From Anaerolineae bacterium (GTDB lineage Bacteria; Chloroflexota; Anaerolineae; Anaerolineales; E44-bin32), in NCBI GenBank assembly GCA_011192015.1, contig DUET01000011.1, forward strand, positions 1 to 64,000: a DNA stretch of 64,000 nucleotides, read 5' to 3'. Position numbers and translations under genes: made by a program. The first letter of the stretch is position 1. Every line of letters starts with the position of its first letter. Positions 1,203-10,485 of this stretch are shown here, piece after piece. The notes below the pieces were generated by a model. It ran no database searches and was not told the origin of the DNA. It worked only from the letters and a program-made list of their open reading frames with translations.

Positions 1203-1288
1203 AGGCGCCCTCTCGGGCGCCTTTAGGTAGCGGGGTTTGGATTCCCTGGCCTGACCGGTCAGGGCAGGCGAACCAAGGACCTTCAGGT
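1203..1288 (-). pseudogene. tRNA-Met 3'-half remnant plus terminator hairpin, interrupted in the T-loop by a 25-nt insert (attachment-site-like)
   Basis: 1203-1244 and 1270-1288 align to 4031-4072 and 4073-4091 (terminator hairpin plus 3' half of the intact tRNA) with about 4 mismatches over 61 nt. 1245-1269 (cctggcctgaccggtcagggcaggc) is an extra near-perfect palindrome. Confidence 0.75.
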
Positions 1289-1480
1289 ACTGAGCTTCGT
1301 CCCTGAAAAAGTTAGCTCGGAACGTCAGCCGAGGCATTTGAGCCTACCTTGCAGTTTGAGGTTCCTTTGGATCCGACGAGATGGGATCCTAGGGAGTATA
1401 GGATCACTTCAGAAATGACGCAAATGCTAGGGACAGTATCTGTCCAGCAGCCTACTGATTAAGAATTATCAGCAGAAGTG

Positions 1481-1548
1481 TCTATTGTGTCCATCGTGTC
1501 TACTTTGGGGGCGCAAAACCGTCTATTGTGTTTGTTGAGTCTATTGTT
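1481..1548. repeat. degenerate 9-bp tandem repeat block, 3 + 3 units with a 14-bp interruption
   Basis: TCTATTGTG/TCCATCGTG/TCTACTTTG (1481-1507), then GGGGCGCAAAACCG, then TCTATTGTG/TTTGTTGAG/TCTATTGTT (1522-1548). Confidence 0.65.
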
Positions 1549-1740
1549 TGAACTCCAATTGCACCGAAACTGCACTAAAAACCGATTGAGGAAAGGCGGC
1601 TCGACCTGGCGTGATCATGCCTGATATCAAGATAAGGGGAATGAGATGGGTGATCGAGGTGCCTTCCTGTGGGTAGATAGCGTTCTAGAGGTTTTCTTAT
1701 TCGCGGCAGAAGCCGATCAAGTTATCCGCCAATAGAATGC

Positions 1741-1770
1741 GGAACTCCCGGATATTGCGCCGGGAGTTCC
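1741..1770. terminator. hairpin downstream of the I42-like gene
   Basis: GGAACTCCCGG-atattgcg-CCGGGAGTTCC, perfect 11-bp inverted repeat; no strong T-tract. Confidence 0.5.
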
Positions 1771-1798
1771 GTCCCGCAGGCTTAATGCCCTCCAGCAG

Positions 1799-2236
1799 TC
1801 ATCGCACAACCACTGTCAAGGTGAATGTCCAGCTGTTCTTTTCGCCACCATCCCATGGCTGACTGTATCCCAGTGTTATGATGCTTTCTCCTGCTTTGAG
1901 CGTACTGAAGGTCCAGGTGTGGATGCCCGGTGAGCCAGGAGGGGGAGGGTCATCGACCGATCCCGGAGCTGTGAATTCCTGACGATCTTGCACTATCACC
2001 TCGGGGTTGCTTAGTTCAGCATCCTCTTTCCAGTTGTAGCCTGTGGTCGGATTGGAGCAGAGGCTGATGGTGATTTCGGCGCCTTCACGGACTTCAATGC
2101 GATGAACCTGGTTCGGCGAGTTTGCGAAGGCATCGCAGTCAATATCGATCGATCCAGGCGCGGTGCAGGACGACAGCAGCACCATCAGGACCAGCGCAAG
2201 AATCTTCAGTATACGGGGGGAGGTGGCTTTCATCAT
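1799..2236 (-). CDS. secreted chagasin-like (MEROPS I42) cysteine protease inhibitor, lipoprotein
   Basis: Lipobox LSSC; NPTTGYNW motif and SPGIHTWTFSTLKAGES segment typical of I42/chagasin; AGGAGA Shine-Dalgarno. Confidence 0.75.
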   Translation of the reverse strand: MMKATSPRILKILALVLMVLLSSCTAPGSIDIDCDAFANSPNQVHRIEVREGAEITISLCSNPTTGYNWKEDAELSNPEVIVQDRQEFTAPGSVDDPPPPGSPGIHTWTFSTLKAGESIITLGYSQPWDGGEKNSWTFTLTVVVR

Positions 2237-2274
2237 TATTTCTCCTTTAACTACTGCTCGATGCGGCTGTTGTA

Positions 2275-3588
2275 CTAATTGCCAACGAATTCAATGCGTG
2301 TGATCACGATCTGCGTGAGGTTCCAATCCGGGATGCCTGCCATCAAGCTTCCCCAGATGCGAACCCGTGTTCCCGTGTCCCGCAGAGACACGATCTGGGG
2401 CTCAAGCTCGGGATTTCCACTCGGTCCGAAGGCTGTGATTCCGTACTGGATGGGGTAATCACCTTCGAGAAGGAAGTAGTCATCGCCACCCGATCCGGGT
2501 TCGGTTCTGCCGGTGACGATGGTGCCTTCCCAGCCCTCGACTGGATCCGGGTCGAAGAAGGGACCGGGGCCGCTCACACGCATGCGTGTGACTCGAAGCT
2601 CACAGCCTCCGTAATCCAGCGCCGGGCAGATCAGCTTGCCCCAGAAATTGGCGTAGCTGTTAGCCTCTAACCCATCGCGTAGAGCAACGATCTGCTGCTC
2701 GATGGTTTCCGTTTCACCTTCGATGCCGATTTCGACGATGCCATCCGGATTGACGGAGAGGTAATCATCATGCTGGCTTCCAACGGGGAGCTTGATGACT
2801 TGCCCATACCAGGCAAATGCAGTCTCATCCGTCTCCACTGCCGGAGGTTCATCAATCAATTCGATGCGCGTGACCTCGATCTGCGTGCCGTTCCAATCCG
2901 GGATGCCTGCGACCAAACTGCCCCAAATGCGGACCTTGGTTCCCGTATCCCGCAGGGATTCGATCTGAGGTTGAAGCTCGCGCTCGCCGCTCGTGCCAAT
3001 GGCAGCCACGTTGCCGTACTGAATGGGGAATTCCCCATCGAGCTGGAAGTAATCATCGCCGCCCGATCCCGGTTCGGTTCTTCCTGTGAAGAAGGTGCCT
3101 TCCCAGCCCTCGACGGCTTCAGGTGCAGAGAGAGCACCAAGTTCATGGCGCTGAACACGGGTGACGCGAAGCTGGCACTCACCATAATCAAGCACCGGGC
3201 AGGTAACGGTGCCCCAGAAGTGAGCATTGCGGCTTGATTCCGGTTGATCCCGTAAAGCGACGATCTGATCCTCAATGGCCGCCGTTTCTCCCTCGATCCC
3301 GATCTGAACCATGCCGTCAGGATGGACAAAGAGCAGATCATCGTATTGGTTACCGGGAAGACCGATCACATACCCGTACCATGCGTAGGCCATCTCTACA
3401 ATGCCACCCCCAGCAGCTGGAGGTTCTGTCTCCACCGGTTCAACCTCATCGGTGGGAGGCATTTCGGTTTCGGTAGGAACTTCAGGGGCTAGCGTTGGTG
3501 TGTCGGTTGCACCGCATCCTGCGAGTGCAACGGTGCTCAAGACGAGAATAAACACGCCCAACAATGCTAGTGTTTTATCTAACATCAT
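2275..3588 (-). CDS. repeat-containing lipoprotein of unknown function
   Basis: Start trimmed to MMLDKTLALLGVFILVLSTVALAGCG (lipobox) after an AAGGAG site. Tandem units share ..G.DDYF..DG...I.G....I..QI..LRD......WG.L......L.VTR. Confidence 0.75.
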   Translation of the reverse strand: MMLDKTLALLGVFILVLSTVALAGCGATDTPTLAPEVPTETEMPPTDEVEPVETEPPAAGGGIVEMAYAWYGYVIGLPGNQYDDLLFVHPDGMVQIGIEGETAAIEDQIVALRDQPESSRNAHFWGTVTCPVLDYGECQLRVTRVQRHELGALSAPEAVEGWEGTFFTGRTEPGSGGDDYFQLDGEFPIQYGNVAAIGTSGERELQPQIESLRDTGTKVRIWGSLVAGIPDWNGTQIEVTRIELIDEPPAVETDETAFAWYGQVIKLPVGSQHDDYLSVNPDGIVEIGIEGETETIEQQIVALRDGLEANSYANFWGKLICPALDYGGCELRVTRMRVSGPGPFFDPDPVEGWEGTIVTGRTEPGSGGDDYFLLEGDYPIQYGITAFGPSGNPELEPQIVSLRDTGTRVRIWGSLMAGIPDWNLTQIVITRIEFVGN

Positions 3589-3807
3589 CCTCTCCTTCAA
3601 GATTAGAGTGCCTCCTTCACACCTCTTCAAACTCATTACCCCCAAATGCAGCAGACTGAACTCCTTCAATCCCCAAGGTATCAGACGAAGAATATTCTGC
3701 TGCGGTTCCCCTCGAAATGCAAATGACCTGCTCCCCAAGAATTGATCCATATACAGAGCTAGGATCAGATACCTGAAATGGGAAGCCACCTAGCGGGGGC
3801 TTTTTTG

Positions 3808-3892
3808 TGGGCGGAACAGGACTCGCCTGTCCCGATGCTCTATCGGGGAACCTCCGACCTCTTCTGTGTAAGAGAAGCGTTCCGCTACCAGC
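3808..3892 (-). pseudogene. tRNA-Val(UAC) 3' remnant with a 23-nt hairpin insert in the T-loop
   Basis: Minus strand: ..GGTAGCGGAACGCTTCTCTTACACAGAAGAGGTCGGAGGTTC[CCCGATAGAGCATCGGGACAGGC]GAGTCCTGTTCCGCCCA. TAC anticodon arm kept, 5' portion (acceptor and part of D-arm) missing, insert at 3825-3847. Confidence 0.65.
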
Positions 3893-4030
3893 AGTCGATA
3901 TCATTTGCATAATGATTCTTCTAGAGTCCAGGCTAATATCCAAGCGGTCCTAGGTTTCCTTCCTATATAAGGGGGGCTCAATAAGGAAGAACGCCGTTAA
4001 AACCACTCTCAGAGGGCATTTTAAGGGCTA

Positions 4031-4050
4031 AGGCGCCCTCTCGGGCGCCT
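4031..4050 (-). terminator. hairpin immediately 3' of tRNA-Met
   Basis: AGGCGCCC-GAGA-GGGCGCCT on the minus strand; identical hairpin at 1203-1222. Confidence 0.55.
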
Positions 4051-4055
4051 TCAGG

Positions 4056-4127
4056 TAGCGGGGCTAGGATTCGAACCTAGGACCTTCAGGTTATGAGCCT
4101 GACGAGCTGCCACTGCTCCACCCCGCA
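4056..4127 (-). tRNA. tRNA-Met(CAU), initiator-like
   Basis: TGCGGGGTGGAGCAGTGGCAGCTCGTCAGGCTCATAACCTGAAGGTCCTAGGTTCGAATCCTAGCCCCGCTA; full cloverleaf, CAT anticodon, unpaired 1:72 (T:T) as in initiators. Only two of the three usual G:C anticodon-stem pairs are present. Confidence 0.9.
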
Positions 4128-4182
4128 ACGTTTGCGGTCTTGCTTGAGCGCTGGGGATTATATCACGCCGCTCGCGCGAGGG

Positions 4183-4590
4183 TCAAGGCCGGTCCCCGAA
4201 GATGAGCGCCCACCACACTTCCCACTTGTTCACCACCGGTTCTGAAAACTGCACGAAGGGTGTTGGCGTGGGGACGAAGCCCTCCGCGGGAATGGGAATG
4301 ATCAATGTTTCCCCATTGCGCACCATCTTCCCCTCGCTGTGCGCCCAGGCTTCGATGAAGGCTTCGCTCGTGGCGTTGGCGATCTGTGTTTCCAATCGGG
4401 TGTTTTCGGCTTCCAGCCAACCCACCTCGGTCTGCAGCAGGTGGGCATCCTGCTCCAGGCGGCGGGCATCCGTCATGCGCTGGTTCAGGTCGCCCAGGAC
4501 GATGATGCCCAGCACAGCCGCGATCAGCAGCCACATGCGTGCGCTCTTACGGGAGGACGAATCGCCTTCTGCCATTTCAGTCGAGATCAT
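4183..4590 (-). CDS. FtsB/DivIC-like septum formation initiator family protein
   Basis: Start trimmed to MISTEMAEGD..; one TM helix followed by coiled coil (RRLEQDAHLLQTEVGWLEAENTRLETQI). Confidence 0.65.
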   Translation of the reverse strand: MISTEMAEGDSSSRKSARMWLLIAAVLGIIVLGDLNQRMTDARRLEQDAHLLQTEVGWLEAENTRLETQIANATSEAFIEAWAHSEGKMVRNGETLIIPIPAEGFVPTPTPFVQFSEPVVNKWEVWWALIFGDRP

Positions 4591-4640
4591 ACCTGAGGCG
4601 CGTGGCGGCTGCAAGTATTCCGCTCCTCGGAGAAACAGAC

Positions 4641-4664
4641 ACAGCCCCTCTGTCTGAGGGGCTG
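4641..4664 (-). terminator. hairpin 3' of tRNA-Leu
   Basis: AGCCCCTC-AGACA-GAGGGGCT on the minus strand, followed by GTGTCTGTTTCT. Confidence 0.55.
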
Positions 4665-4671
4665 CTGTTGG

Positions 4672-4755
4672 TGCCGAAGGTGGGATTTGAACCCACATGA
4701 GCCGAAGCTCACTGCGCCCTGAACGCAGCGCGTCTGCCTGTTCCGCCACTTCGGC
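4672..4755 (-). tRNA. tRNA-Leu(CAG)
   Basis: GCCGAAGTGGCGGAACAGGCAGACGCGCTGCGTTCAGGGCGCAGTGAGCTTCGGCTCATGTGGGTTCAAATCCCACCTTCGGCA; class II tRNA with variable arm; anticodon loop TTCAGGG. Confidence 0.95.
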
Positions 4756-4844
4756 ACGCCCCGCTATTCTACCCCATGTGGCGAAGGTGTCAACGCATGC
4801 CAGGAAAATTCAATCGTGGGGAAGAATGAAACGTTGTGTAAACG

Positions 4845-7800
4845 CTAGCCCGAGACCTGCTTGATGGCCTCGTCTAATCGCAGGCTGATGACCCTGCTCG
4901 CCGAATCCGCCCCCATGCTGACCCCGTAGATCACCTCCGCGGCCTGTACGGTCTGGCGGTTGTGGGTGATCAAGATGAACTGCGTCTCCCGGCTCAGCTC
5001 GCGCAGCATGTCGATGAAGCGCACCACGTTGGCTTCGTCCAGCATGGCGTCCACCTCATCCAGGACGCAGAACGGCGTGGGGGAGATCTTCAGCAGGGAG
5101 AAGATGAGTGAGGTCGCCGTCAGGCTACGCTCCCCGCCCGAGAGGGCGGCCAAGCCCTGCGATCGACGTCCCGGAAGCCTGGCTTCGATGTCGATACCGC
5201 TGTTGCTGAAATCATCCATATCCGTGAGTATGAGGCGCGCCGAGCCTCCTCCGAAGAGCCGCGTGAAGGTCTCCCGAAATTCCTTGGCGACGGCCTCGAA
5301 CGTCTTGCGAAACTCGCGTTCCATGAGCACGTCCAACTCGGCGATCACCTCGCGAATCTGGGTGGCTGCCTTCTGGCTGTCCTCCAACTGCTGGGTCAGG
5401 AAATCAACGCGCGCCCGCACTTCCTCATACTCGCTCTGGGCCTCCGGGTTGATGGCGCCCATGCGTCGAAGCTGGGCCTTCAAGCGACCCATCTGAGTCT
5501 GCAGATCGAGGGGGAGATCCTCCACGCGTGGCAGCCGTTCCACGAGTCCCTGCAACGGAAGAGGTTCCTGGCTGGCTATGGCATTCTGATCTTCGAAGGC
5601 AACGAGGCCGAAATCATCCTCGATCCGGCGACGCAGGCTCGATAGTTCCTCTTCACGGCGGGCAAGCTCGATCTGCAATTGCGAATGCCCGCGCTCGGCC
5701 TCCTGCAGCAGGCTGCGGGTGAGGCTCTCTTCGGCCTCCAACTGCGCGCGTTTGTCCTCCGCTTCGGTCAATGCCTGCTCAGCGGGTCGGACTTGAGCTG
5801 TGAGCTCCTGGAGCTGCTGCTCCACCTCCTCCGCATCCCTGCGCGCGTCTTCGATTTCCGCCCGCAGCTCCTCTTGTTCCTTCTGATTGGAGGCAAGGCG
5901 ATGCTTCCAGTTCTGCAGTTCATGCTCGAGGGCATTGCGCTCATGTTCGACTTCACTCAAACGGCTGCGTGCCTGCTGTTCGGCCTGTGCAGCCACGTCG
6001 AGCGGGGAACCGAACTCCACCCACTCATCACCCTCCGGTCGCAATTGACTCTGGATGATACCCAATTCAGCGTCGATGCTCTCACGCTCGAGATCGTAGG
6101 TCGCCCCCTTGCCTTCCATCTCCCTACGCTGCTGCTCGAGCCCATCGATCTCGGTTTCCAGCAACTCCAATTGCCCCTTGAGAAAAGCCAGCGTCCGGTT
6201 GGCATCCTGCTTTGCGAGCTGCATCTTCTCCGCATGCAGCTGCGCTTCGCCCTCGGCCCGCCGGGTGTCCTCCAGATTCTGCTGCGCTTCCCCGAAGCGA
6301 TCCTCCGCCTGCTTCGTCTCTTCTGCGGCACGCTGTGCTTCTTGGGCTGAATCCAGGCTTTTTCCCTTCAACGCAGCCAGCTTGGTCTCCAACTCTGCAA
6401 GCCGCTTTCCCGCCGCCGAAGCAGGATGGTCCGCGCCGATCATCACGGCGCCCGATGCGTAAAACACCTCGCCTGCCAGCGTGACCAGCCTGCCATCCGG
6501 TGGCAGTTCGATCCTCAGGCGCTGGGCCGTCTCGTGGTCCTCCACTACCCAGGCGCGCCCCAACAGCATATTGGCAAGCTCCCGGTAGTCTTTCGAAGTC
6601 TCGACCAGTTCGGCTGCGTTTCCCAGGCATCCGGAAGCGCGAGGCGCTTCGATCAATGACGGCTCGTGAAACAGGGATAGCGGCAGCAGCGCGGCAGGAT
6701 CCCCGTCGTTCCGTTGGGCCAACCAGCGCAGCGCCTCGCCGACATCATCGCCGGTCTCGAAGGCAACTCCAGGCGCGAAGCTGCCCAAGAGGGCTGCGAT
6801 AGCGACCTGATACGCAGGTTCAATCTTCAAGGCATCGCCCAGCTTGCCGGCCAGGCCACCCAACTCCCCGCTGGCGGAGGCCTGGATCATGCTCTTCGCT
6901 ACGCGTTCCGAATCTTCCAGCGATCGCTGGAGCGCATCCAATCTGGCCTCGACGGAATCCTGTTCGGTTTTGATCTTGGCGGCGTCTCTCTCCAGCCGCT
7001 CCTGATCCACCCGCTTCTCCTCGACCTTTGATCGAGCCGAAGCTAGTGCGGTCTCTTGCTTCTCGAGTTCTTCACGCGCCGTTTGTAATCGCTTCTCCGC
7101 ATCCAAAGCCTGCCGCTCTGCATCACGCGCCAATGTCTCCGCAGCAGATACATCTCCATGCAAAGCTGTGCGTCTCTCGCCCAGGGCGTCCGCACGCGCA
7201 TTCAGCTGTGTCGATTGAGCCTCCCAGGCGGCACGATCAGCGATCAGCCTCTCCTGGGAGGTCTGAAGCTCCCGCATGCGAGAGGCCAGCATGGTGCGCT
7301 GTTCGTCCTGGTCTTCGCTAACCGGCTGCTCGAGAGAGTACTTTGCGGTTGTGACCGCTTCCTGCCGGCGTTGGGCTTCCCGCTGCGCGTGCTGCAGACG
7401 TTCCCGGATCACCTGCCGGCGATCCTCCAGCGTTGTGATCTCCGCCTGCAGGAATTTCTCCTGATCGCCCAACCAGCGCTCGCGTTCTTGGGCAACCGCC
7501 AGACGGCGACCTCGAATCTCACGCTGACCGTACAGGCCTGAAACCTCCCGCGCATTGCGGTGCAGGTCGCTGCGCAGCCCATCGATGCGCCGGCGCGCCT
7601 CGACCAGCTCGCGATCCGCACGTTCATGACGCGAGCGAAGATCGTCCCGCTTGGTTTCCTGATTGCGGGCTGCGGTCCTGCGGGTCACGACATCGGATTG
7701 CATCTTATGCCAGTGGTAGCCATACCAGATGCGCAAGGCTTCCTTCAGATCCGTGCGCACCTGCTCATGGTTGCGCGCTCTGCGTGCCTGACGCTCCAGG

Positions 7801-8439: not shown

Positions 8440-9213
8440 TCACTTGCCTCCCAGGTCCGAGACCTTGTAGCCAATACGCCTGAGCGCATTTTCAGCAGCT
8501 TGCTGCGCGGCTTCTTGCTTGCTCCGCCCGCGGCCTCGGCCCTGTACCCGGTTTCTGACCGAAACCTGCACGACAAATTCACGGGCATGATCGGGGCCAT
8601 GCTCTTCCAATGTCCTGTATTCAGGCGTAACTCCCATCTCGGCCTGAGCCCACATTTGGAGCATGCTGCGTGAATCGATCAGAGATCGTTCCTCGAACGT
8701 GTGCTTCATCGTCTCCTGCAAACGCGGTTCGATGAACTCACGCACACGCTCGATGCCTCCATCCAGGAAGAGCGCGCCGATAAGCGCCTCAAAAGCATCA
8801 CAGAGCAATGTCGGCCGTTGCCTCCCCCCCGCCATGCTTTCTCCCTGCCCCAGGAGCAGCGCCTCGCCAAGATTCATCTCAGTTGCGAATTTGCTCAACT
8901 GCTCGGTGCAGACCAAGGAAGACCTCAGTCGTGTGAGTTGGCCTTCATCCATCTCGGGGAAGTGGTTGTAGAGCCAGGCTGCGCTGAGGAAATCCAGGGC
9001 AGCGTCTCCAAGAAACTCGAGGCGCTCGTTGTCCTCCAGGGCATCTGGATGCTCATTGACATACGAACGATGCGTAAGTGCCCGCAAGAGCAGACTGGGG
9101 TCGCTAAACTCCAAGCCTGCCTGACGCGCAAACTCGTCTGGTGTCATTTGTTTATCCAAAGACTTAGGGGACGCCACGAATCCAGGGGCGCCTGACTTCG
9201 CCGCGTCCCCCAA
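8440..9213 (-). CDS. rnc: ribonuclease III
   Basis: NERLEFLGDAALDFL signature, C-terminal dsRBD. True start may be the Met at about 9147. Confidence 0.95.
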   Translation of the reverse strand: MGDAAKSGAPGFVASPKSLDKQMTPDEFARQAGLEFSDPSLLLRALTHRSYVNEHPDALEDNERLEFLGDAALDFLSAAWLYNHFPEMDEGQLTRLRSSLVCTEQLSKFATEMNLGEALLLGQGESMAGGRQRPTLLCDAFEALIGALFLDGGIERVREFIEPRLQETMKHTFEERSLIDSRSMLQMWAQAEMGVTPEYRTLEEHGPDHAREFVVQVSVRNRVQGRGRGRSKQEAAQQAAENALRRIGYKVSDLGGK

Positions 9214-9243
9214 TTCCTAGTGAATTGCGGCCTATCTTCGATT

Positions 9244-10485
9244 CTAACCCGAGAACTCTCGGAACGCCAGTACAGCGTTATGTCCACCAAAGCCAAAAGC
9301 GTTGCTCACAGCCACGTGGACATTGTGTTCTCGGGCCTCAAGGGGAACGTAATCCAGATCGCATTCGGGATCGGGATCATGAAGGTGGATCGTCGGTGGG
9401 ATGATGTTCTCACGAATCGCCTGCACGCAGAAGATCCCTTCCAGCGCGCCCGTTGCTCCCATCATGTGTCCGGTCACGGATTTCGTCGAAGAGATGGGGA
9501 CACGATGAGCATGCTCACCCAAGGCCTTCTTGATGGCATGCGTCTCTGCCGTATCATTGAGCAGGGTTCCTGTTCCATGGGCATTGATGTAATCGATCTC
9601 CTCGGGATTCAATCCGGCAGAAGCCATCGCGCCTCGGATGGCGGCTGCGCCGCCCTCACCTTCCACGGAAGGCGCGGTGATGTGGTAAGCGTCGGTTGTT
9701 GCAGCGTAGCCGATGAGTTCGGCAAGCACATCGGCGCCGCGCTGCTCGACATGCTCCAGGGTCTCCAGCACGATAATCCCCGACCCCTCGCCCATCACCA
9801 AGCCATCCCGGTTGGCATCGAAGGGAGAGGGTGTGAAAAAGGGTGGGTCATTGCGGCGTGAAAGCGCGCCCACACGATCGAAGGTGCCGATGCCTATCTT
9901 ACAAACCGTGGCTTCCGATCCTCCAGCGATGACTGCATCAGCAATGCCTGCTTTCAACAACAACCAGGCATGCCCGATGGAATCTGCGCCCGAGGCGCAT
10001 GCCGAAGCAAGGGAGTAGCAGGGACCTTTAGCCCCCGTCTCGATGGCAACCATCCCCGACGCTCCGTTGGGCATGAACTTCGGAATCACGAACGGACTGA
10101 GACGGCGCGCCCCAGAATGGGCGAGAATATCAAAGGCATCTTCCAATGAGATGAGGCCTCCCACCGCGGTGGAAATCACCACCGCCACCCGCTCCGCATT
10201 TCCCTCATCAACCTCCAGCCCCGATTGTTGCAGGGCTTCATGAGTCGCAGCAAGCGCATACTGCTCGAAGAGGTCCGTACGCCTTGCCAGGCGAGTGGAG
10301 ATCGTCTGCGACGGATCAAAATCCTTGATCTCGCATGCGATATGCACGTTTAAATCGGAGGAATCGAAGTACGTGATGGGTCCGATACCAGAGACGCCGT
10401 GGATGGCGTTGTTCCATGTTGTAGCTACATCGAGGCCGATCGAATTGACCGTCCCCATGCCGGTGACCACCACTCGCTTCGTCAT
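9244..10485 (-). CDS. fabF: 3-oxoacyl-ACP synthase II
   Basis: 413 aa; SACASGADSIG active Cys, NAHGTGT and STKSVTGHMMGATGA His motifs. Confidence 0.93.
   Translation of the reverse strand: MTKRVVVTGMGTVNSIGLDVATTWNNAIHGVSGIGPITYFDSSDLNVHIACEIKDFDPSQTISTRLARRTDLFEQYALAATHEALQQSGLEVDEGNAERVAVVISTAVGGLISLEDAFDILAHSGARRLSPFVIPKFMPNGASGMVAIETGAKGPCYSLASACASGADSIGHAWLLLKAGIADAVIAGGSEATVCKIGIGTFDRVGALSRRNDPPFFTPSPFDANRDGLVMGEGSGIIVLETLEHVEQRGADVLAELIGYAATTDAYHITAPSVEGEGGAAAIRGAMASAGLNPEEIDYINAHGTGTLLNDTAETHAIKKALGEHAHRVPISSTKSVTGHMMGATGALEGIFCVQAIRENIIPPTIHLHDPDPECDLDYVPLEAREHNVHVAVSNAFGFGGHNAVLAFREFSG

Follow-up and report, generated by a model that had tools for sequence, protein, structure and literature searches.

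Short palindromic inserts at a recurrent T-loop site in displaced tRNA halves of Anaerolineales

The window, the whole 64,000-nucleotide stretch of DNA analysed here, lies on contig C12 of a 2.95 Mb genome (G000), and the relatives of this genome in an exact-pattern scan were Anaerolineales MAGs (L216, L242). Two 3' remnants of different tRNA genes in the window are each interrupted within the T-loop by a short palindrome, and the question is how two different tRNAs came to be split at one point. An earlier reading of the letters of the window (the sequence-only reading) had suggested a recurrent process, either a palindromic element targeting T-loops or a tRNA-fragment/hairpin module. The features concerned are as follows.

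1204-1296, minus strand: tRNA-Met(CAU) 3' half, displaced and split in the T-loop, with the terminator that follows it (blastn and alignment)
1244-1268, plus strand: 25-nt Met insert, CCCTGGCCTGACCGGTCAGGGCAGG, at ATT^CGAACC (equivalent register 1245-1269 on the minus strand)
1799-2236, minus strand: islet cargo, lipoprotein with a chagasin-like Inhibitor_I42 domain (PF09394, E 1.4e-20)
2275-3588, minus strand: islet cargo, lipoprotein with internal repeats and no Pfam match
3807-3879, minus strand: displaced 3' part of tRNA-Val(UAC), split in the T-loop (blastn against the intact tRNA-Val of the same genome, and alignment)
3826-3848, minus strand: 23-nt Val insert, CCCCGATAGAGCATCGGGACAGG, at GTT^CGA, a hairpin with the tail ACAGG
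3929-3965, plus strand: inverted, degenerate copy resembling the tRNA-Met 3' half, located downstream of the intact gene (73% complementarity to 4065-4101)
4032-4127, minus strand: intact tRNA-Met(CAU) (4054-4127) with terminator, its 3' half being a direct repeat of 1204-1296

Two split remnants in one islet

The splitting of a tRNA-Val(UAC) 3' remnant by a 23-nt insert was confirmed by blastn to the intact gene and by alignment. The remnant covers tRNA positions 26-75, ending in the discriminator region, with nothing kept before position 26, and consists of two blocks, positions 26-57 at 3879-3848 (97%) and positions 57-75 at 3825-3807 (100%). The intact tRNA-Val(UAC) lies on another contig (G000:C106:31567-31640, equal to L004:1067-1141). 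The hairpin CCCGAT-GCTCT-ATCGGG, with arms at 3831-3836 and 3842-3847, is exactly as it had been read; CCCGATNNNNNATCGGG occurs nowhere else in the genome of 2.95 Mb (control 0), and the fold of the insert was beaten by just 2 of 200 shuffles (z -4.15). The remnant as a whole folds into stacked hairpins. The pairing of CCTGT in the insert with the flanking ACAGG, which had been taken to replace the T-stem, is present but looks incidental, because ACAGG is a conserved element tail that is kept in copies lacking a CCTGT neighbour and lying away from tRNAs. An Rfam scan of 3300-4900 returned no family besides two intact tRNAs, and blastn of 3600-4055 against phage and plasmid sequences gave no match.

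In the Met remnant, 25 nt separate tRNA-Met positions 37-56 from positions 56-74. The remnant closes an islet (1204-4101) that has the tRNA-Met 3' half and terminator as a direct repeat on either side (1204-1296 and 4032-4101), and the islet thus carries at its far end the tRNA 3'-end direct repeat by which tRNA-targeting integrative elements are recognised. No integrase was found among the islet cargo ORFs examined. Degenerate inverted tRNA-like 3' halves, comprising the T-arm and anticodon arm on the opposite strand, also lie downstream of intact tRNA-Met in L204 and L206, and are perhaps part of the attachment region of the islets. Elsewhere in the host genome (L191, G000:C29:1-12000), three more degraded fragments of the tRNA-Met 3' end and terminator were seen near 1061, 2744 and 3329, their spacing of 0.6-1.7 kb suggesting a second islet array.

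By alignment, both window inserts fall at GTT^CGA / GTTC^GA in the T-loop with a one-base ambiguity of register, in agreement with the same split point named for the two remnants by the sequence-only reading. TTCGAA reads the same on both strands, so the Met copy can be placed, and its insert read, on the other one. In one orientation, both inserts then have the form 5'-CCC...GGRCAGG-3', a hairpin followed by a tail, directly 5' of CGA. The two palindromes, one in Met and one in Val, had been described as different; the CCC...GGRCAGG before CGA that they have in common indicates that they are related, and not unrelated palindromes. The combination of terminal inverted repeats and a target-site duplication that characterises MITEs of DDE transposons was not seen, there being no duplication at GTT^CGA in the 23-nt cases.

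Recurrence and site of the inserts in other genomes

Searches of other genomes were made with tRNA-Met and tRNA-Val queries, the compared genomes being mostly or all incomplete drafts. Displaced Met or Val halves split in the T-loop numbered at least 12, namely the two of the window and 10 elsewhere, and a wide scan added L216. A recurrent process would have been contradicted had there been no further instances, but such instances exist: in other genomes, too, displaced halves have inserts at these T-loop nucleotides. Eight split Met halves lie outside the window (L192 twice, L193, L194, L195, L200 twice and L198, in G018, G023, G024, G025 and G026). Seven are clear, with inserts of 23, 29 or approximately 55 bases (two in G018, one in G025, two in G026, one of 23 nt in G023 and one in G024), and the eighth, in G023, holds approximately 53 bases, readable as two inserts, of 23 and 29 nt, stacked at TT^C and C^GA. 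Less clear inserts were present in L196 (twice) and L197 (G003). The Val remnant gave split matches in G003 and partial ones elsewhere, its relatives in 60 genomes being mostly intact tRNAs; one Val half (L171, G003) has approximately 94 extra bases at the junction of T-stem and T-loop, and another (L173, G011) a palindrome of approximately 50 bases ahead of CGAGTCC. The longer inserts (L171, L173, L198) have the site in common, but not the sequence. An assembly artefact was rejected, the same site being filled in several separate genomes.

Displaced Met halves were common in the family in the tRNA-Met search and mostly began near position 31. Six of them (L201, L202, L203 twice, L205, L209), together with the Val half L172 (G014), have no insert, and since insert-free displaced halves exist, the inserts were gained later. 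In L198:1937-4290 (G024:C71), which has the same direct-repeat arrangement as the window islet, an intact tRNA-Met is followed by an ArsR-family regulator, an SBF-family (ACR3-like) transporter and then a displaced Met half that has an insert in its T-loop, forming a cassette-like islet of 2.2 kb without an integrase. In L203:1306-2585 and 9048-10075 (G021:C35), a near-identical pair of units each place a displaced Met half beside an IS110-family transposase gene (PF02371, E 3.9e-15).

When 843 kb were searched with the 3' halves of 32 tRNA sequences, the split halves recovered, seven in all, were every one split at the T-arm/T-loop, and for no tRNA type was there a 3' half with a split elsewhere. 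The chance that about 6 random insertions over about 45 positions would all fall in 8 T-loop positions is near 3e-5, a rough figure in which the number of independent events is a matter of judgement. In three halves of genus g13, the anticodon loop also holds a hairpin of 29 nt; the target is therefore not T-loops alone, the T-loop and the anticodon loop both being loops of tRNA hairpins. The 29-nt hairpin CACCGCACCGTAGCCGGTGCGGCACGGTG, or a close variant or remnant of it, occupies the anticodon loop (AACTCA^TAACC) of displaced Met halves, as noted upstream of the Met halves in L193, L195 and L175. A scan of 85k genomes for one tRNA-Met type with inserts of 12-42 nt found true T-loop inserts in Anaerolineales MAGs only, and the extension to other phyla that had been envisaged is unsupported for this type. 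The remainder of that scan, 32 of 34 matches, comprised intact tRNAs or 3' ends with an unsplit T-loop and a chance downstream motif. Scans of viral contigs for four split-T-loop patterns found none.

The 23-nt g13 insert has nine copies genome-wide in four genomes, each of the nine preceded by GTT or ATT in a T-arm-like flank (control 0) and two being followed by a second insert. Its T-stem backgrounds are CTTGG/CCAAG, CTCAG/CTGAG and CTAGG. They may be read as separate acquisitions of one insert, because complementary alternative stems are expected from different once-functional tRNAs and not from drift of one dead copy; gene conversion is the rival reading. The 29-nt insert was found at only two T-loops in G018, in two halves with an identical copy, and at one in G024, along with one similar, intergenic-looking copy in G026; its other matches were apparently unrelated. 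The G018 pair, and the halves L193 and L194, which are alike in their flanks as well as in the insert, would fit a spread within the lineage by whole-half duplication or gene conversion after one or few original insertions. Some g13 copies may have spread in this way, but as a general account it is improbable, as one 23-nt insert sits in all three T-stem backgrounds, and the inserts found at this site in tRNA-Val and in other genera are different ones. Folding is poor for the g13 inserts (z 0.67 and -0.18), and the label of hairpin is not equally clear for all inserts.

Dispersed relatives of the window inserts

The Val insert is identical at 22 of 23 positions to dispersed repeats of G005 and at 20-21 of 23 to repeats of the congeneric genome G001, where a second hairpin type matches the Met insert at 20 of 25; each p value was the lowest that 2000 shuffles and 2000 random hairpins allow. 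The Met-type hairpin of G001 is nested in the loop of another hairpin, as seen from the filled L122 versus the unfilled L061 (CCCGCACGTTCTTAGCGGGG). Relatives of both inserts are thus dispersed in other genomes and, with the further Met and Val halves, support the recurrent process and the element targeting T-loops that the sequence-only reading had proposed; its alternative, a functional tRNA-fragment/hairpin module, gained no support of its own. Among the matches of a family-wide scan with the Met-orientation pattern (GGTTCGCCTG..GANTCC), the window copy alone is a tRNA fragment.

The copies in G000, G001 and G005 have a hairpin and an ACAGG tail and measure 22-25 nt, in keeping with the imperfect palindromes of 20-40 nt and conserved short foot tag by which REPs are known, but the tag is ACAGG followed by C (GCCTGT on the other strand) and not GTAG or CGTC. 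A REP is expected to have many dispersed intergenic copies in its host. Enrichment of GCCTGTCCCGA over a reversed control showed the family to be dispersed in G001 (11 versus 0), G003 (18 versus 0) and G005 (12 versus 3). No dispersed insert copies were found in 450 kb of G000 and no genome-wide motif enrichment over the reversed control, and a dispersed REP family in the host genome was rejected. No Y1/RAYT-type transposase (PF01797) was found in the incomplete MAGs G000, G001 and G003; the domain is present in G005, G011, G024 and g13 genomes, assigned by domain match without subtype; the completeness of these MAGs is 75-92%. Tandem hairpin repeats separated by TTCG were observed in L056-L060 (G005), for example CCCGATGCTCTTGTCGGGG-CCGTTCG-CCCCGCATGCATTTAGCGGGG-TTCG-CCCCGGTTGTTCTTACCGGGG.

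Origin of the inserts and comparison with known systems

The explanation considered probable is that hairpin loops receive REP-like micro-palindromes at TT^C, and that such insertions survive where tRNA-targeting islets have left a displaced tRNA half without function. Small gene islets of this Anaerolineales family would integrate at tRNA-Met(CAU) and tRNA-Val(UAC), with the islet supplying a new 3' half and the old half, from anticodon arm to terminator, being displaced to the far end and so released from selection. Displaced halves, an exact recurrent T-loop site and a common insert family are directly observed. Micro-palindromes of approximately 23-25 nt (5'-CCC...GGRCAGG-3') would then enter directly 5' of the C in the loop of hairpin-forming DNA, for which a tRNA T-arm, with its GC-rich stem and TTCGA loop, would be a ready target. 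Nesting in hairpin loops occurs in the same-genus genome, and one insert occurs in several T-stem backgrounds; the arrival itself would be transposition-like, into a hairpin and possibly single-stranded target. Insertions into working tRNAs would be lethal and be removed by purifying selection, which would leave inserts visible only in displaced halves, at TT^CGA. A more specific version is put forward tentatively and is itself rather doubtful: a 23-25 nt element mobilised in trans, with TT^C(GA) in a DNA hairpin loop as its target, which in g13 would have tRNA T-loops as its sole niche and displaced halves as its refuge, since working tRNAs cannot tolerate it.

It is unlikely that the inserts are instead selected, in the sense that a half with a broken T-loop cannot rebuild a tRNA, that excision of the islet is lethal and that the islet is locked, because excision by recombination between the tRNA repeats leaves no working tRNA; as a variant, the hairpins might function in the recombination site. 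This tRNA-Met type and tRNA-Val(UAC) occur once each as intact genes in G000, the anticodon arm, which is the likely crossover region, is left intact in most insert-bearing halves, and the 23-nt g13 insert is confined to T-arm contexts, all as such selection would have it. Any damaging mutation would serve, however, so that the exact same nucleotide is unexplained, many displaced halves have no insert, a hairpin is also found in the anticodon loop of three halves, and the related hairpins in G001 and G005 occur away from tRNAs. Local formation of the palindromes by replication template switching at the T-arm hairpin, without a mobile element, is very unlikely; T-arms are natural hairpins and the ACAGG end of the Val insert is complementary to the adjoining CCTGT, but the inserts match repeats of other genomes (Val 22/23, Met 20/25), the ACAGG tail is kept where there is no CCTGT neighbour, and identical inserts recur in different halves. 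A working role for the split halves, as small RNA genes or tRNA-like genes that have acquired an extra stem, is hardly credible despite the stacked-hairpin fold of the window Val remnant, given no Rfam match besides the two intact tRNAs, the missing acceptor 5' strand and D-arm, and inserts that differ in sequence, length and fold among copies.

If insertion of REP-like palindromes into hairpin loops is correct, the displaced halves offer a naturally marked target for such insertion, at one nucleotide position in many halves, with empty and filled versions in one family. Comparative genomics could then address how gene-less REP-like palindromes move and choose targets, a long-open question, and tRNA-targeting islets would be seen to leave sites that are colonised by other small elements.

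Archaeal T-arm tRNA introns are likewise short structured inserts in the T-loop region of a tRNA gene; here, the host gene is a non-functional bacterial fragment and there is no evidence of splicing. REPs, including the GTAG-23 REPs of Thermomicrobium roseum, also of the Chloroflexota, sit within small palindromes (PMC3733652). The T. roseum REPs resemble the present inserts in being palindromes of 20-40 nt with a short tag at one end and in inserting inside palindromes (PMC3733652), but differ in the tag noted above, in targets that here include tRNA T-loops, and in the Y1 transposase that was not found in G000, G001 and G003. The short palindromic repeats of Volvox organelles, often one inside another and thought to be selfish (PMC2670323), and the hairpin elements of sponge mitochondrial DNA are similarly small hairpins, but are organellar, unrelated in sequence and not described in displaced tRNA halves (PMC2670323, PMC2800124). 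Palindrome-in-palindrome insertion is thus already known; no description of the T-loop niche, in which hairpins enter the T-loops of tRNA halves that have been displaced, was found in the limited literature searched. The ssrA islands of Dehalococcoides form arrays of displaced 3' ends, have their insertion point in the tmRNA T-loop and involve serine recombinases (PMC3146451). They are alike in being Chloroflexota islands in a tRNA-like gene that leave displaced 3' ends (PMC3146451), but there the island itself enters the T-loop, whereas here the start of the halves is close to the anticodon loop, and nothing but an insert of 23-94 nt lies in the T-loop.
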